Assembly (NCBI RefSeq): GCF_000307105.1 | Contig: NC_018645.1 | Span: 880,578 to 944,577, forward strand | DNA from: Desulfobacula toluolica Tol2 | GTDB lineage: Bacteria > Desulfobacterota > Desulfobacteria > Desulfobacterales > Desulfobacteraceae | Direction of reading: 5' to 3' | DNA: 64,000 nt | Part shown: piece after piece, positions 16,101 to 21,232 of the stretch | How positions within the stretch are numbered: the first letter of the stretch is position 1 | How the letters are laid out: every line of letters begins with the position of its first letter | Notes under the pieces: model-generated | The model's database searches: none | What the model was told of the DNA's origin: nothing | The model's input: the letters and a program-made list of their open reading frames with translations, nothing else | Program-made: the position numbers and the translations under genes

Positions 16101-17321
16101 TTAAGGTCTTAAGTGGAAAATTTTTTCAAAATACAGGCGGCGGCAGTTATTTTCAACTTCCAGCAGAGTGGCAAAGGCATCGGAAAAATTTTCTTTTCCC
16201 GTGGTAAACAAACCATGGCCATATACAATAGCACTGTTTGACTGTTCAAGAGCCGGGGGCAGGGTGTTGCAAAGGCCGGTGGGGCCGGTGCCGACTTCCC
16301 CGGGTACAATTGGGGTGGTGCCGACATATCTTTTTTTCGGGCATTTGATGTGGCATTGGTCTGAAAAACAACAGGCAGCTTTTTCAGCAGGATCGCAATC
16401 CATGGATAAAATGACACAAAATTTGGGGTGGCCGTGCAGGATAGCTCTGTATTTGGTGCGGGCAATGATCTCCAGATGGGCGGACAGTTCACTTGAGGCG
16501 GTGAGTCCTGCGCTGGTGGAACCGTCTAAGGGGACCGGGTCAATGCACCCGGAAAGTGTATCCAGGGAACTTCCGGTCTGGCTGATGTAAAGGGTTTTGT
16601 GCCGGCAATAGGAGACATTTCCGAAATAAGAGTCCACAAGTCCGTATTCAACGGTTTTTTTGCCTGCTTCGATAATGGCGGAATAAACGGTTTCTTCATC
16701 CGGGAAAGGAGCGCGAATAAAATCGGGCAAAGGCTGTTGTTCCTGCTTTATATAAGGTAATACAGCGTCAAACAGATCGTGGGCATCGTCTGTGGCAGTC
16801 CCTGCTTGAAGTTTTTCCAAGTAATCTGTATAAAACTTAACAAAGCTTGCAAAACAAACGGAACTGACCGTAACAAAGCCCTGTTCAGGGCTGACCGTGC
16901 CGTGGGCTACAATGGCAGGGCCTTTGAAATCGTCATCGGGAGATTGTGGTGCAATGATCACGCTTTTTCTTTTTTTCAAAACCCGGATGATTTGGTCTGC
17001 ACAAAAGTCTTTGATCACGGGCAGATCATGGAGAAATGTTCTTGTTTCACAATCTTTGGGTTGGATCAATCCATTGGATTTAAGAGCGTTTTTTGCCAGA
17101 AATCCCAGTAGACTGCCGTAGGGTTCGGCTGGTCTTAAAAATACCAGGGAATTGATATTGAGTTCTTTGAAAACATCTTCCAGAACCTTTGTCTCATCTG
17201 CTTTGCGGTTCCAGACCAGCGTATCATCCAACCCGCCTATCAAGGGCCTGCAAGGGCCTGCGTCACTACCCAGCTTTGCTTTGACAAGTTTGGCTGCATA
17301 TGTATTTACAAGGTTTTCCAT
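16101..17321 (-). CDS. Class II aldolase/adducin-family protein with extra N-terminal domain
   Basis: 406 aa; typical class II aldolases are about 200-230 aa. The C-terminal half holds the family zinc site (ILHGHPKFCVIL and IVYGHGLFTTGKE) plus GNVSYCRHKTLYISQTGSSLD. The first ~190 residues form an additional domain with LVWNRKADE and VIIAPQSPDDDFKGPAIVAHG, which I cannot assign. It overlaps the aldehyde:ferredoxin oxidoreductase gene by 16 bp, so the aldehyde released by an aldol cleavage could be oxidised by the neighbouring enzyme. That link is inference. Confidence 0.8.
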   Translation of the reverse strand: MENLVNTYAAKLVKAKLGSDAGPCRPLIGGLDDTLVWNRKADETKVLEDVFKELNINSLVFLRPAEPYGSLLGFLAKNALKSNGLIQPKDCETRTFLHDLPVIKDFCADQIIRVLKKRKSVIIAPQSPDDDFKGPAIVAHGTVSPEQGFVTVSSVCFASFVKFYTDYLEKLQAGTATDDAHDLFDAVLPYIKQEQQPLPDFIRAPFPDEETVYSAIIEAGKKTVEYGLVDSYFGNVSYCRHKTLYISQTGSSLDTLSGCIDPVPLDGSTSAGLTASSELSAHLEIIARTKYRAILHGHPKFCVILSMDCDPAEKAACCFSDQCHIKCPKKRYVGTTPIVPGEVGTGPTGLCNTLPPALEQSNSAIVYGHGLFTTGKENFSDAFATLLEVENNCRRLYFEKIFHLRP

Positions 17322-19099
17322 AAAAGTCCAAGTGTTTGTGCTTTTTCTTGTGTTGGAAGGCCTTTTGGGGTAAGCCCTCGAATATCATAATATTTTTTTC
17401 TGGCTTCCAGAAACGCATCCTTGCTGATGGGAGGGATAGGCATATTGTTTGAGCTTGATCCATGTTGTGTGAAAAATCGATCAGGAAGGTCATCTTCTCC
17501 GGCGTCAAATCCGTTCAAAGAATTGATGATCCTTTCGTTATAATAGATGCATTCCCCTTTTTTCAGAAGATCATGGGCAGTTGTTTCAATTCCTGTAACA
17601 GCTTCATAGGCAGTTGCGTATTCTTCCAGTCCGGCTGCAAAAAAAGTGAATTTGCAGGCGGTAAGTGAGTCCACCACGGCATTAAGGTCTTCAGCAATTT
17701 TTATGATCCTGGCTTTGCCGCTGAAGCTGAAGCGATCCGTGGCCACGGGTTTTCTGAAAATTTCATGACTGATGGGATAGGCCCTCAAATGGCATCCGCC
17801 CCTGGTGGACAGGGCATATCCCAATGCCATGCCGTAAGCACCCCTGGGATCATATGCAGGAAGTTCCATTCCCTTGACAGTCATGGCGGTTTGGGGTGAT
17901 CCCATATGTTTTGCATATTTTTTTGCACCCATGGCCAGCTCTTTTCCTTCTCCTCTGCCAAAGGCAATATCATCCAAAAGAGACAACAGGGTTGCCGGCG
18001 TATAATCAAGGCCGGTTATTTCACGCCTGCAGGCCAGGGTTGACGCCGTTGATATGGTATCCATTCCATAGTCATTGCAACGTTTGTTTGCATTTACGAC
18101 AAGATCGATATCCCGGCAGCCGATCAGTGCCGTAAAATGGGACATGGTTTCAAACTCCGGCATGCTGAGTTGTTGACCGTTTTTTGTGCCTGGCTTTGTC
18201 CCTGGTTTTGTACCTGTTTTTTTACAAAGAATATGGCAGCCCAGGCATCCGGTTTTTCGGGGAGCATAGGTTTTTGCGTACATGGCTGCATTAAGCTGGG
18301 ACGCAGGCTCAAAACGGGTGCGGCAAAAATTATCCGTCGGCATCATCCGTCGGTTATCCATAAGATCATATACCGCCCCCGTACCCAGGCAGGTGAAACC
18401 GAACTGACCCATAAGGGCAGGGGAGGCGGCTGTGAGCCTCAGGATGTCTTCCCTGACCTGTTTTAATTGTTTAGTATCTTTTACCTTGCAATGGCCTGTG
18501 CCGTTCACAAGGATGTATTTGATTTTTTTTTGTGCAAAACAAAGTCCAAGTCCGCTCCTGCCTGCGGCAAAATGGCGATCCACAATTATGGAGGCATATT
18601 GCACACCATTTTCAGCCGCAGGTCCTATGCAGGCAAGTGAAGCCTTTTTCGGCATGATCCTGTTGTGAAGGATGGAGGTATCAACGCCCCATAATCCTGT
18701 AGCATCTTTAAATTCAATGCTGCAATTTTTAATTTCAATTCCAACCGGGGCCTGGCTTGTGCCTTTGATGACAATGCCGTCCCAGCCCGCCTGCTTGAGC
18801 CGGGTAGCCAGTTTTCCGCCAACGGATGAATCTCCCACAAGTCCTGTGAGCGGTGATTTTGAAATGATATGTCCTCGTCCTGATGTGGGGGCGATGGTTC
18901 CTGTCAGGGGGCCTGAAAAAATGCAGATTACCGTGTCAGGATGATTCCAGGGAAGGGTTGCGCACTCTCGCAGGTATTTGCCGCCCAATCCTTTGCCGCC
19001 TACATAGCGGTTATAAGTTTCAAGAATGGGTGTCTCAACTTCAATGCTTTTTTTTGTCAGGTCAATATGCAGTATGTTCCCGGTCCATCCGTATATCAT
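17306..19099 (-). CDS. Aldehyde:ferredoxin oxidoreductase (tungsten-type AOR family)
   Basis: 597 aa. N-terminal MIYGWTGNILHIDLTKKSIEVE and YVGGKGLGGKYL are family hallmarks of the tungstopterin-binding domain. GPLTGTIAPTSGRGHIISKSPLTGLVGDSSVGG follows, then CLGCHILC in the middle and a later Cys (SLTACKF), giving the [4Fe-4S] ligand set. It catalyses ferredoxin-linked oxidation of aldehydes to acids or the reverse reduction. It lies 2 bp after arsC and overlaps the class II aldolase gene. No tungstate transporter is visible nearby. Confidence 0.92.
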   Translation of the reverse strand: MIYGWTGNILHIDLTKKSIEVETPILETYNRYVGGKGLGGKYLRECATLPWNHPDTVICIFSGPLTGTIAPTSGRGHIISKSPLTGLVGDSSVGGKLATRLKQAGWDGIVIKGTSQAPVGIEIKNCSIEFKDATGLWGVDTSILHNRIMPKKASLACIGPAAENGVQYASIIVDRHFAAGRSGLGLCFAQKKIKYILVNGTGHCKVKDTKQLKQVREDILRLTAASPALMGQFGFTCLGTGAVYDLMDNRRMMPTDNFCRTRFEPASQLNAAMYAKTYAPRKTGCLGCHILCKKTGTKPGTKPGTKNGQQLSMPEFETMSHFTALIGCRDIDLVVNANKRCNDYGMDTISTASTLACRREITGLDYTPATLLSLLDDIAFGRGEGKELAMGAKKYAKHMGSPQTAMTVKGMELPAYDPRGAYGMALGYALSTRGGCHLRAYPISHEIFRKPVATDRFSFSGKARIIKIAEDLNAVVDSLTACKFTFFAAGLEEYATAYEAVTGIETTAHDLLKKGECIYYNERIINSLNGFDAGEDDLPDRFFTQHGSSSNNMPIPPISKDAFLEARKKYYDIRGLTPKGLPTQEKAQTLGLLWKTL

Positions 19100-19101
19100 T
19101 A

Positions 19102-19548
19102 TTATAATCCAAAAGAGTGTGTCAAACTGTCAGGCAGCGTAAGAATGTAATCCTTGATTTCATCCCTTACTTTTCTATAGCAGTCAAGTTTTTTTTCCGG
19201 ATCATCATGGTTTTTGGCCATTTTGGGCGGATCATCAAACCCAGCATGAATGACTCGGCTGCCGCCGGGGAACCAGGGGCAAGTTTCATGGGCATGACCA
19301 CACACCGTGATCACATAGTCAAAACGTGAATGTTTGAATTCATCCAGATGCCTGGATCGGTGGTGAGAAATATCGACCCCGGCTTCGGCCATGACGGTTA
19401 CGGCATGTGGGTTCAACCCATGGGTCTCAATCCCGGCCGAACAAACATCAATAAGGTTTGCTTTAAGATGTCTTGCCCATCCTTCTGCCATTTGGCTTCG
19501 ACATGAATTGCCGGTACAAAGAAACAGGATCTTTAATTTTTCACTCAT
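19102..19548 (-). CDS. arsC: Arsenate reductase, LMW-phosphatase fold (thioredoxin-linked type)
   Basis: 148 aa. P-loop CTGNSCRS with the nucleophile C11 and R17, and the redox pair C83/C90 in VCGHAHETCP that distinguishes thioredoxin-dependent ArsC from plain low-molecular-weight tyrosine phosphatases. FDDPPK and the C-terminal YRKVRDEIKDYI helix also fit. It is first gene of the arsC-AOR-aldolase transcript. No arsR, arsB or acr3 is adjacent, so the arsenate role is family knowledge, not context. Confidence 0.9.
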   Translation of the reverse strand: MSEKLKILFLCTGNSCRSQMAEGWARHLKANLIDVCSAGIETHGLNPHAVTVMAEAGVDISHHRSRHLDEFKHSRFDYVITVCGHAHETCPWFPGGSRVIHAGFDDPPKMAKNHDDPEKKLDCYRKVRDEIKDYILTLPDSLTHSFGL

Positions 19549-19702
19549 TTTTAATCTTTTATAGTGTGGAAGTTATTCAGTTATGTAATTCAGGATGTCT
19601 GGATTGTAAAGTTTAATTTAATATTTTTTTAAACATAAATTTTCCATGACATCCTTTGATGATTATGGTATGGTACATATTTTAAAAAATAAGAGGATAA
19701 CT

Positions 19703-19795
19703 ATGATCAACGATTTGAACTCCAGCATCTTTATCGCGTATTGTGCGGCGGCAGCGGCGGCGGCCGAATGGCCTGCGGTTCTGGAGGGGATTTAA
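19703..19795 (+). CDS. Alanine-rich leader peptide of aminotransferase attenuator (30 aa)
   Basis: 30 codons behind an AGAGGA ribosome site (5-nt spacing). It contains nine alanines, seven of them consecutive (residues 15-21, codons GCG GCG GCA GCG GCG GCG GCC). It ends about 30 nt before two intrinsic terminators that precede an AlaA-like aminotransferase. The segment GCCTGCGG (19771-19778), just after the Ala run, is complementary (8 bp, one G-U) to CTGCAGGC (19827-19834) in the first terminator, forming a candidate antiterminator. A small GGCC-GAAT-GGCC hairpin overlaps the last Ala codon. Inferred role: sensing of charged tRNA-Ala. Confidence 0.8.
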   Translation: MINDLNSSIFIAYCAAAAAAAEWPAVLEGI

Positions 19796-19823
19796 TGATT
19801 TGATTTCCTTATAAAAATTTCCA

Positions 19824-19855
19824 GGGCTGCAGGCAAGCAATTGCAGCTTTTTTTA
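19824..19855 (+). terminator. First terminator of the alanine attenuator
   Basis: Stem GCTGCA/TGCAGC (19826-19831 with 19842-19847) is followed by seven T residues. GGGCTGCA at 19824-19831 is also a perfect 8-bp complement of TGCAGCCC at 19876-19883 in the second hairpin, so the two structures are mutually exclusive. Confidence 0.75.
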
Positions 19856-19861
19856 TTTAAA

Positions 19862-19890
19862 GGGTTGCAGCCTGTTGCAGCCCTTTTTTT
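19862..19890 (+). terminator. Second terminator of the alanine attenuator
   Basis: Stem GGGTTGCA/TGCAGCCC (one G-U pair) with a 6-nt loop and a run of seven T residues, ending 31 nt before the aminotransferase start. Tandem arrangement with the first terminator suggests tight or two-step control. Confidence 0.78.
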
Positions 19891-19921
19891 ATTTTAACAC
19901 CTGAACAAAGGATCTTCTCCA

Positions 19922-21232
19922 ATGAGAACAAGAATTGTACATATCGGCGCACAAGAGTTAACCTACGAGATCAGAAATATCATCCGGGTGGCTGACAAGC
20001 TCAAGGAGATGGGAGTAGAGGTCTATCTGGAAAATATCGGAGATCCAGTGGCAAAAGGAGAAAAGGTCCCGATATGGATGAAGCAGATTGTTTCCAAACT
20101 TGTCATGGAGGACGAATGCTACGGTTACTGCCCATCCCAGGGCCTGCTTGAAACACGGCAATTTCTGGTTGACATGAACAACAGCAACGGCCATTGCCGA
20201 ATCACCCCGGATGATATTATCTTTTTCAACGGCCTGGGAGATGCCATAACCAAAGTTTATGGTTTTTTGCGCCGGACAGCCCGGGTGATCACCCCGTCAC
20301 CCACCTACACTACCCACTCTTCATCTGAAGCTGCCCACGCCGGTCTCCCCCCGGTGTGTTATCCTCTTGACCCCAACAACAACTGGTTCCCGGATATTGA
20401 TGAACTCAGACGCAGGGTCAAGTATAATCCTGCCGTAGCAGGCATCCTTCTGATCAACCCGGACAATCCCACAGGAACGGTTTTTCCGGAGAGCATACTC
20501 AAAGCTATTGTAGCCATTGCTGAAGAGTTCAACCTTTTTATTATTGCTGATGAAATTTATCAGAACCTTATTTATAATGGTAAAAAGTCCAAGCCCCTGG
20601 CTGCCGTTATCGGTGATGTCCCGGCTATCTCCATGAAGGGAATTTCAAAGGAACTGCCCTGGCCGGGTTCCAGATGCGGCTGGATCGAAGTGTATAATGC
20701 CCGTAACAAACCTGAGTTCAGCACCTATATTCAAACCATAGTCGGTGCAAAAATGGTGGAGGTCTGCTCAACCACCTTGCCCCAGAAAGCTTTTCCCCAC
20801 ATTGTTCAGCACCCAAAGTTTCAGGCTCACTTGGGAGAAAGACGGTTGCGCTATGAGAGATTTTCCGGAATTGCCTATGAAAGATTAAAGAAGATTCCCG
20901 GTATTTTAGTCAACCGAACTGACGGTGCTTTTTATATGAGCATCGTGTTTAAGGACGGCAAAGTGAATGGCAGGCAATCTCTGCCCATTTCAAATCCTTC
21001 TGTCCGCAGCCTGATTGAAAATCTCATTGATGACCCGAAAATAAATCCTGACAAACGGTTTGTTTATTACCTGTTGGGCGCAACCGGCATTTGCCTGGTT
21101 CCTCTTTCCTCTTTTAATACGGATCTGCAAGGGTTCAGGATGACTCTTCTGGAGCCGGATGAGAAGCGTTTCTGTGACATGATTGACACTCTTGGCAAGG
21201 GGATTGAAGACTATATCAATTCAGCAGAATAA
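19922..21232 (+). CDS. PLP-dependent aminotransferase, fold type I (AlaA-like)
   Basis: 436 aa. Class I/II aminotransferase: YGYCPSQGLLETRQFL (substrate-side), NPDNPTGTVFPE, the LFIIADEIYQNLIY aspartate motif, and GISKELPWPGSRCGW in which the lysine after Ser is the probable PLP Schiff-base residue. The C-terminal FRMTLLEPDEKRF arginine would bind the substrate carboxylate. AAAGGA precedes the ATG. The upstream alanine-codon leader peptide points to an alanine-forming transaminase (glutamate-pyruvate type); that substrate call is inference from the regulator rather than from the active site. Confidence 0.85.
   Translation: MRTRIVHIGAQELTYEIRNIIRVADKLKEMGVEVYLENIGDPVAKGEKVPIWMKQIVSKLVMEDECYGYCPSQGLLETRQFLVDMNNSNGHCRITPDDIIFFNGLGDAITKVYGFLRRTARVITPSPTYTTHSSSEAAHAGLPPVCYPLDPNNNWFPDIDELRRRVKYNPAVAGILLINPDNPTGTVFPESILKAIVAIAEEFNLFIIADEIYQNLIYNGKKSKPLAAVIGDVPAISMKGISKELPWPGSRCGWIEVYNARNKPEFSTYIQTIVGAKMVEVCSTTLPQKAFPHIVQHPKFQAHLGERRLRYERFSGIAYERLKKIPGILVNRTDGAFYMSIVFKDGKVNGRQSLPISNPSVRSLIENLIDDPKINPDKRFVYYLLGATGICLVPLSSFNTDLQGFRMTLLEPDEKRFCDMIDTLGKGIEDYINSAE

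Follow-up and report, generated by a model that had tools for sequence, protein, structure and literature searches.

What controls the aminotransferase gene that lies behind a short, alanine-coded open reading frame (ORF) in Desulfobacula toluolica Tol2, and what does this control say about the product of the enzyme? The question was addressed in the window, the whole stretch of 64,000 nucleotides (nt) that was analyzed (contig NC_018645.1, positions 880,578 to 944,577). Sequence comparison established a leader ORF conserved as an alanine peptide, the terminators that follow it, and the competing pairings among their arms; from these we infer that the ribosome stalls and transcription terminates, which way the element responds, and what substrate the enzyme uses. 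On this comparative evidence, the 5′ region is very probably a ribosome-mediated transcription attenuator responding to how much charged tRNA-Ala is available, as an earlier note made from the sequence of the window had proposed. A fuller reading holds that the attenuator governs alanine synthesis, that it acts on two terminators through a relay of helices (A:B, then C:D; Table 1), and that it is built on a platform reused for tryptophan, aromatic, and alanine genes in Desulfobacterales; we put this reading at a little under one half (roughly 0.46).

Conservation of the alanine leader

The leader peptide, MINDLNSSIFIAYCAAAAAAAEWPAVLEGI, has alanine at codons 12, 15-21, and 25, and the nine Ala codons among 30, seven of them in a row, were found just as the earlier note had read them, as were the two tandem terminators ahead of the aminotransferase gene. 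The order on the + strand is promoter-like site, leader, two terminators, and gene, with 126 nt between the end of the leader ORF and the aminotransferase gene. The upstream neighbor, an arsenate-reductase-like gene, is divergent on the other strand, so both terminators fall within the 5′ part of the aminotransferase transcript. A transcription start inside or downstream of the terminators, which would speak against such a switch, was not indicated: the promoter scan placed a site ahead of the leader and none on the + strand between the leader and the aminotransferase gene. Terminator-like sites numbered 8 on both strands of the 2.5 kb region, compared with 2.5 in shuffles, and the leader RNA fold beat 198 of 200 shuffles (z −3.1). 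Seven consecutive GCN triplets (N, any base) occur at two places in the one-contig 5.2 Mb genome, one in this leader and one in repetitive sequence that appears, by eye, to be coding; the reversed pattern, used as a control, occurs at seven. At the gathering score, Rfam returned only a tRNA in the window; the matches at the leader were all below threshold and to unrelated families, and the T-box covariance model yielded no T-box among the Rfam matches, so the region does not qualify as a T-box leader.

Three sets of orthologous genes were used: 30 loci of the order, where 57 of 389 genomes matched; the 80 best of 515 relatives on named genome contigs; and, from the phylum (81 of 395 genomes matched), the upstreams of the best 70 of the 81 matches. 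An initial collection held 94 distinct upstreams, and the full collection of 163 was reduced to 160; L013, with 167 nt upstream, was excluded from the Ala-run count and the leader criterion, leaving 159 upstreams (500 nt), of which 158 were valid (L158, not a valid upstream, was counted as a row without leader and carried no Ala label). A short ORF with at least four consecutive Ala codons was present in 54 of the 159, compared with 0.98 expected from first-order random sequence and with 7 of 434 control upstreams of other mechanically called ORFs of at least 150 amino acids in the named loci; the next residue, arginine, formed runs in 5 of 159. A loose leader criterion, set before the tree but after leaders had been seen, was passed by 69 of the 159 upstreams, 58 of them on the tree. 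Four of those passing, L079, L181, L199, and L210, appear to be false positives; an Ala-rich leader and a terminator are present in L058, which does not pass, and neither is seen in L115. In the 118-gene tree, the Ala-rich leader was found in the window's clade (20 of 21 genes) and in a Desulfuromonadales clade (36 of 38 genes); elsewhere, it occurred in the long-branched L176 and in 1 of 39, 0 of 12, and 0 of 7 genes. The presence of the leader changed six times on the tree, compared with 39.4 under shuffled labels. This conservation of Ala leaders and terminators in two clades supports the attenuator proposed in the earlier note, which had named the absence of Ala codons or hairpins from orthologous leaders as a ground for giving it up.

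Across the seven Ala codons in 16 aligned relatives, the commonest base accounted for 95% of rows at the first codon position, 93% at the second, and 55% at the third, with variation at all seven third positions and at three of seven first and second positions. The leader peptides differ outside the Ala codons, and codon use across leaders is spread over GCA (214), GCG (211), GCC (170), and GCT (139). By the evidence of these alignments, the run is conserved as an alanine peptide rather than as DNA. The leader in the window uses GCG for seven of its nine Ala codons, compared with 9 of 155 in five window genes; this preference was given no weight because the leaders jointly use all four Ala codons. 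A Shine-Dalgarno match of 4 or more was found for 48 of 69 Ala leaders, compared with 21% of random positions, the start codon having been chosen partly by that match. The pattern TGACA-N14-17-TGnTA lies ahead of the leader in 13 of the 16 relatives, from whose sequences it was drawn.

Alternative helices, ribosome position, and related leaders

Arms B and C form terminator 1, and arms D and E form terminator 2. The arms can each pair in two ways, and arm A is coding sequence as well: the consensus fold of the 16 relatives consists of A:B plus C:D, and the terminators consist of B:C plus D:E. The pairing of a stretch after the Ala codons with the first terminator, claimed previously, is real and longer than claimed, with 14 pairs between A and B; this antiterminator starts after the control codons and excludes terminator 1. 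In the 16 relatives, A:B is paired in 98.2% of alignment cells (three pairs changed on both sides) and C:D, between the 3′ arm of terminator 1 and the 5′ arm of terminator 2, in 97.9%. Jointly, they are paired in 98.1% of cells with three doubly changed pairs, compared with 31-51% in controls in which the partner was slid by one to three columns. B:C is paired in 96.3% and D:E in 94.4% of cells, or 95.4% jointly with four doubly changed pairs, compared with 33-72% in controls slid likewise. The earlier note had also paired the 5′ arm of the first terminator with the 3′ arm of the second (B:E). This helix exists, being paired in 93.1% of cells with an energy of −18.7 kcal/mol in the window sequence, but the scheme left C:D unstated, and this competing, conserved helix fits a co-transcriptional relay better.

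The effect of ribosome position was modeled by folding, as a simplification, only the RNA that begins 13 nt beyond the A-site codon, with the sequences of the 16 relatives starting at the Ala run rather than at the transcript 5′ end. In the window sequence, the predicted probability (P) of terminator 1 was 0.00 with the ribosome at each of the two Ala codons chosen and rose to 0.93 at the stop codon; the means over the relatives were 0.30 at the first Ala codon, 0.29 at the middle one, and 0.90 at the stop. Terminator 1 won in all 16 with the ribosome at the stop codon, and the antiterminator won in 11 of 16 at the middle Ala codon and in 13 of 16 at one of the two Ala positions. Before arm E is made, C:D formed in 15 of 16 relatives for a ribosome halted at the middle Ala codon, compared with 2 of 16 for one at the stop.

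These alternatives suggest how the element may work. Transcription would start ahead of the leader. With plentiful alanine, the ribosome would pass the Ala codons, reach the stop codon, and cover arm A, upon which B:C and D:E would form and both terminators would stop RNA polymerase. With charged tRNA-Ala in short supply, the ribosome would stall in the Ala run and leave arm A free to pair with B; C, released in this way, would pair with D before E is made, both terminators would be lost or delayed, and the gene would be read. The enzyme would then most likely make alanine from pyruvate. Of these steps, the one we infer with least certainty is the relay to the second terminator; it is plausible as a kinetic effect because transcription is directional and C:D forms before E exists.

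The form found in Desulfuromonadales is simpler, with one terminator carrying an (A/G)GCCATGG core in 36 upstreams, all 36 of which pass the Ala-leader criterion. In a pairing test on these loci (36, or 29 after removal of near-copies), the mean A:B fit was −19.53 kcal/mol with a sequence's own B and −17.31 kcal/mol with the B of others. None of 5000 permutations was as low, and 23 of 29 sequences beat their own median cross fit.

Related leaders were found within the order itself. When 291 genomes of the order were scanned with a covariance model of the alanine element (R1), 12 matches exceeded 130 bits, all beside known aminotransferase loci; several of these sequences had been used to build the model. 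Among the weaker matches listed, 20 loci were examined, and all 20 have a run of Trp, Phe, or Tyr codons (0 of 20 an Ala run) followed, as judged by eye, by two U-tailed hairpins; the codon run of L145 was read by eye without a located start. A strict stem rule, applied to 16 of the 20 (L133, L136, L144, and L147 left aside), found both hairpins in 12 and fewer than two in L118, L132, L141, and L146. Six downstream proteins were tested, namely two anthranilate synthases, a 3-deoxy-D-arabino-heptulosonate 7-phosphate (DAHP) synthase, a prephenate dehydratase, a tyrosyl-tRNA synthetase, and a 2-amino-3,7-dideoxy-D-threo-hept-6-ulosonate (ADTH) synthase; the remaining proteins were named by eye. 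Aromatic-codon leaders thus precede trpE, DAHP synthase, pheA, and tyrS genes in the order. They resemble the alanine element in their cognate codons, in two U-tailed hairpins with similar 5′ arms, and, in the 12 with two hairpins under the strict rule, in C:D complementarity, whereas they differ in having Trp, Phe, or Tyr codons and mostly other arms (CCGUGG compared with GCUGCAG of the alanine element). Over 28 elements (12 aromatic, 16 alanine), C:D reached −14.4 kcal/mol with an element's own D, −10.1 kcal/mol across groups, and −5.6 kcal/mol with shuffled D, and it was stronger than B:E in 10 of the 12 aromatic elements. A second terminator derived by copying the first would account for part of this fit.

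A second model (R2) gave 23 matches in 24 genomes: 17 at the aminotransferase, one reverse-strand duplicate, and five others (L237-L241), none of which is an Ala leader before a gene. At L239, an ORF with an Ala-rich end lies ahead of a terminator, and no long ORF follows closely. The known leaders of genomes G584 and G484 escaped R2. A wider alanine regulon was considered and rejected, as neither model gave an Ala leader before other genes among the loci examined.

Table 1. Features of the aminotransferase locus, aromatic leaders of the order, and neighboring genes (window coordinates unless a genome and contig are given)
Feature	Position	Strand	Description
Leader ORF	19703-19795	+	ATG at 19703, TAA ending at 19795; 30 codons plus TAA; nine Ala codons
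Ala run, proposed sensor	19745-19765	+	Seven consecutive codons: GCG GCG GCA GCG GCG GCG GCC
Arm A	19771-19784	+	Within the last third of the leader ORF; partner B
Arm B	19821-19834	+	Partner A (antiterminator 1) or C (terminator 1)
Terminator 1 (B:C hairpin)	19823-19850	+	10 pairs, then U-rich TTTTATTTAA
Relay helix C:D, proposed antiterminator 2	19843-19868	+	19843-19851 with 19860-19868
Terminator 2 (D:E hairpin)	19859-19886	+	12 pairs, then TTTTATTTTA
Aminotransferase gene	19922-21232	+	Pyridoxal phosphate (PLP)-dependent, 436 amino acids, NF005334/PRK06855; probable alanine aminotransferase
Promoter-like site	19646-19674	+	ATGACA, 17 nt spacing, TATGGT, with TG preceding the -10; from promoter scan
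Shine-Dalgarno-like AAGAGGA	19691-19697	+	Precedes the leader ORF; read from sequence
L118	G000:C1:2622628-2622748		Same genome as the window; before anthranilate synthase; leader with WWW
L117	G000:C1:4576368-4576506	-	Same genome; before DAHP synthase; leader with WRWWR
L140			Two-hairpin leader in a relative, before prephenate dehydratase; FYFYYFF
L141			Leader in a relative, two hairpins by eye, before tyrosyl-tRNA synthetase; YYYCGY
L145			Two-hairpin leader in a relative, before ADTH synthase; Phe, Tyr, and Trp codon run by eye
Arsenate-reductase-like gene	19102-19548	-	Upstream neighbor, divergent
Aldehyde ferredoxin oxidoreductase-like gene	17306-19099	-	Strand opposite to the aminotransferase gene
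Class II aldolase-domain gene	16101-17321	-	Strand opposite to the aminotransferase gene

Proposed relay, enzyme, and signal

Several observations weigh against the attenuator and the relay as proposed above. In the ribosome-position folding, 5 of 16 relatives fail to switch at the middle Ala codon, and L018, L019, and L022 show no switch of terminator 1 at either stall position. Terminator 2 remains unswitched at equilibrium, with mean P(D:E) of 0.75 and 0.59 when stalled and 0.67 at the stop. Folding from the Ala run with no ribosome gives A:B a P above 0.5 in 10 of 16, and a protector hairpin like trp 1:2 was not shown, no dedicated search for a conserved 1:2 helix having been made. The alignment of orthologous leaders suggested by the earlier note bore out the conservation of the Ala run and of both hairpins, but the covariation it was expected to reveal is modest in these sequences: the doubly changed pairs are few (3 and 4), and covariation was judged so because shuffles reached their number in 35 and 31 of 500; the count of pair types was likewise reached in 41 and 412 of 500. 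Six of 29 Desulfuromonadales A arms fit the B arms of others equally or better. In the alanine elements, the mean energy of B:E is −15.84 kcal/mol compared with −15.13 kcal/mol for C:D, which is the stronger in 6 of 16. The nearest relative, L007 (same genus, 89% identical enzyme), has no leader; its upstream, read by eye, keeps the promoter-like stretch and the stem of terminator 1 with an interrupted U tract, and lacks leader, arm A, and terminator 2, which seem to have been lost together in an apparent natural deletion. Finally, the genome also encodes an alanine dehydrogenase, upstream of which no Ala run was seen by eye within about 400 nt.

The strongest competitor dispenses with the relay. 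It holds that the leader and terminator 1 form an alanine attenuator, with terminator 2 either a fail-safe with partial read-through or opened by B:E, and we regard it as a serious contender that falls visibly short of an even chance. The equilibrium results fit this explanation, D:E being equally likely with the ribosome stalled or at the stop, and one terminator suffices in the Desulfuromonadales relatives and, by eye, in L154 and L155, which have one each. C:D complementarity would likewise be expected of a second terminator copied from the first. Strength does not single out C:D in the alanine elements because B:E is about equally strong there, and the odds of the relay and of the attenuator reading itself were lowered slightly on this account. 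However, C:D is better kept than B:E (97.9% compared with 93.1% of cells), follows the element across different arm sequences, and outdoes B:E in most aromatic elements, and its formation ahead of E in all but one of the stalled cases also speaks against an attenuator lacking a relay. C:D is preferred over B:E because it can form before E is made, which B:E cannot.

The identity of the enzyme bears on whether alanine synthesis is what the attenuator governs. The aminotransferase scored 708.5 bits against NCBIfam NF005334 (cut-off 443), a family named only "aminotransferase" with no stated substrate, and reached 186.3 bits with the curated alanine aminotransferase model NF006230, below its cut-off of 534. 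Its best solved sequence relatives are the Pyrococcus furiosus alanine aminotransferase (1xi9, 144 bits) and Escherichia coli AlaA (4cvq, 141 bits), to which it is 24-29% identical; the next solved match is a tyrosine aminotransferase at 94 bits. The predicted structure, of moderate confidence (predicted local distance difference test, pLDDT, 78.4), matched the fold of 1xi9 best (Z 36.1; root mean square deviation [rmsd], 2.8; 378 aligned residues; next Z 34.8). Both the P. furiosus enzyme and E. coli AlaA can be aligned with the aminotransferase over the NPDNPTG, ADEIY, and GISK stretches. N182, D210, K243, and R406, which we take to be the catalytic lysine and the PLP residues, are invariant in 27 aligned sequences and common to many class I aminotransferases. 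A shared fold does not prove substrate, and the stronger case comes from the leader, since an enzyme switched on when alanine runs short would be expected to produce it. We regard the enzyme as a probable alanine aminotransferase; the earlier note's expectation of an alanine transaminase is consistent with the best sequence and structure matches, although the score falls short of the curated model's cut-off.

These data also leave some room for an attenuator that senses alanine ahead of an enzyme that makes another amino acid, with alanine as donor, or that serves a pathway tied to alanine status. The unspecific family name, the score below the alanine aminotransferase cut-off, the low identity, and the presence of alanine dehydrogenase would all agree with such an enzyme. 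We nonetheless consider it unlikely, as two alanine aminotransferases are the best matches in both sequence and fold, well ahead of the next in bits, and inducing a consumer of alanine during alanine shortage would presumably be counterproductive.

Of 69 leaders, 45 (e.g., L071, L105, and L193) share a conserved in-frame CGAGC a few codons ahead of the Ala run, for which a role in a hairpin or as a tRNA complement was also considered by eye. Many leaders have Arg-Ala four codons ahead of the run, and the Arg of this RAxxA motif is CGA in 45 of 50, compared with 13 of 145 Arg codons elsewhere in these leaders. Ribosomes often read CGA slowly, and it may set their pace here; several relatives in the window's clade carry CAA at that position, and this points rather to a nucleotide motif. 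The CGA could itself be a pausing site, in which case the ORF might respond to another signal, either a general slowing of translation or arrest by the Ala-rich nascent peptide. This is improbable, given that the peptides differ outside the Ala codons, that all four third bases are used, and that no other residue is comparably enriched. The proposal that the run is a chance product of a GCG-rich patch, with terminators but no switch, draws on its position in a G+C-rich patch of an A+T-rich intergenic region and can be dismissed, being contradicted by conservation in two clades with free third positions and by the Ala-run controls.

Known attenuators and meaning for Desulfobacterales

Ribosome-mediated attenuation itself is long known. 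The enteric trp, his, leu, thr, ilv, and pheA leaders are like the alanine element in having a short ORF rich in the codons of one amino acid, an antiterminator overlapping the terminator, and a gene of amino acid metabolism downstream, whereas the alanine element has Ala codons, two serial terminators with C:D, and no identified protector hairpin. The his leader of Salmonella is a chain of stems in which only the last hairpin terminates; its chain of alternative helices similarly relays ribosome position to a distant terminator, but both hairpins of the alanine element end in a U tract. In the part of the source available, an extra hairpin is noted for the Salmonella his leader, and the list of attenuators includes trp, his, leu, thr, ilv, and pheA and none for alanine synthesis (PMC1183508). 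The earlier note knew of no alanine attenuator. This needs correction for alaL, which precedes alaS in Streptomyces lividans and is described, in the accessible part of the report, as a putative alanine-dependent attenuator leader of a type not described before (PMC8079986). As far as that part goes, AlaL is alike in being a leader peptide with Ala codons (6 of 22 residues) proposed as an alanine attenuator, and it also has Ala-Arg-Ala ahead of its Ala codons; it differs in belonging to an actinobacterium, in preceding a tRNA synthetase gene, in having three Ala in a row, at the peptide end, and in being presented there with no comparison across species (PMC8079986). For alanine synthesis, no alanine attenuator was found among the open-access literature matches listed.

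Alanine control of a probable alanine aminotransferase and the two-terminator relay appear to be new, and no study of a shared leader platform in Desulfobacterales was found among the same listed matches. Alanine is abundant, and several enzymes can make it. A conserved alanine attenuator points to an enzyme on which these anaerobes may rely for alanine, and it hints at what an aminotransferase family whose substrate is not stated may do. If the relay is true, one ribosome stall would disarm two terminators in series, a simple way to make an attenuator tighter. Finding the same layout ahead of trpE, DAHP synthase, pheA, and tyrS genes suggests a regulatory platform shared within the order.

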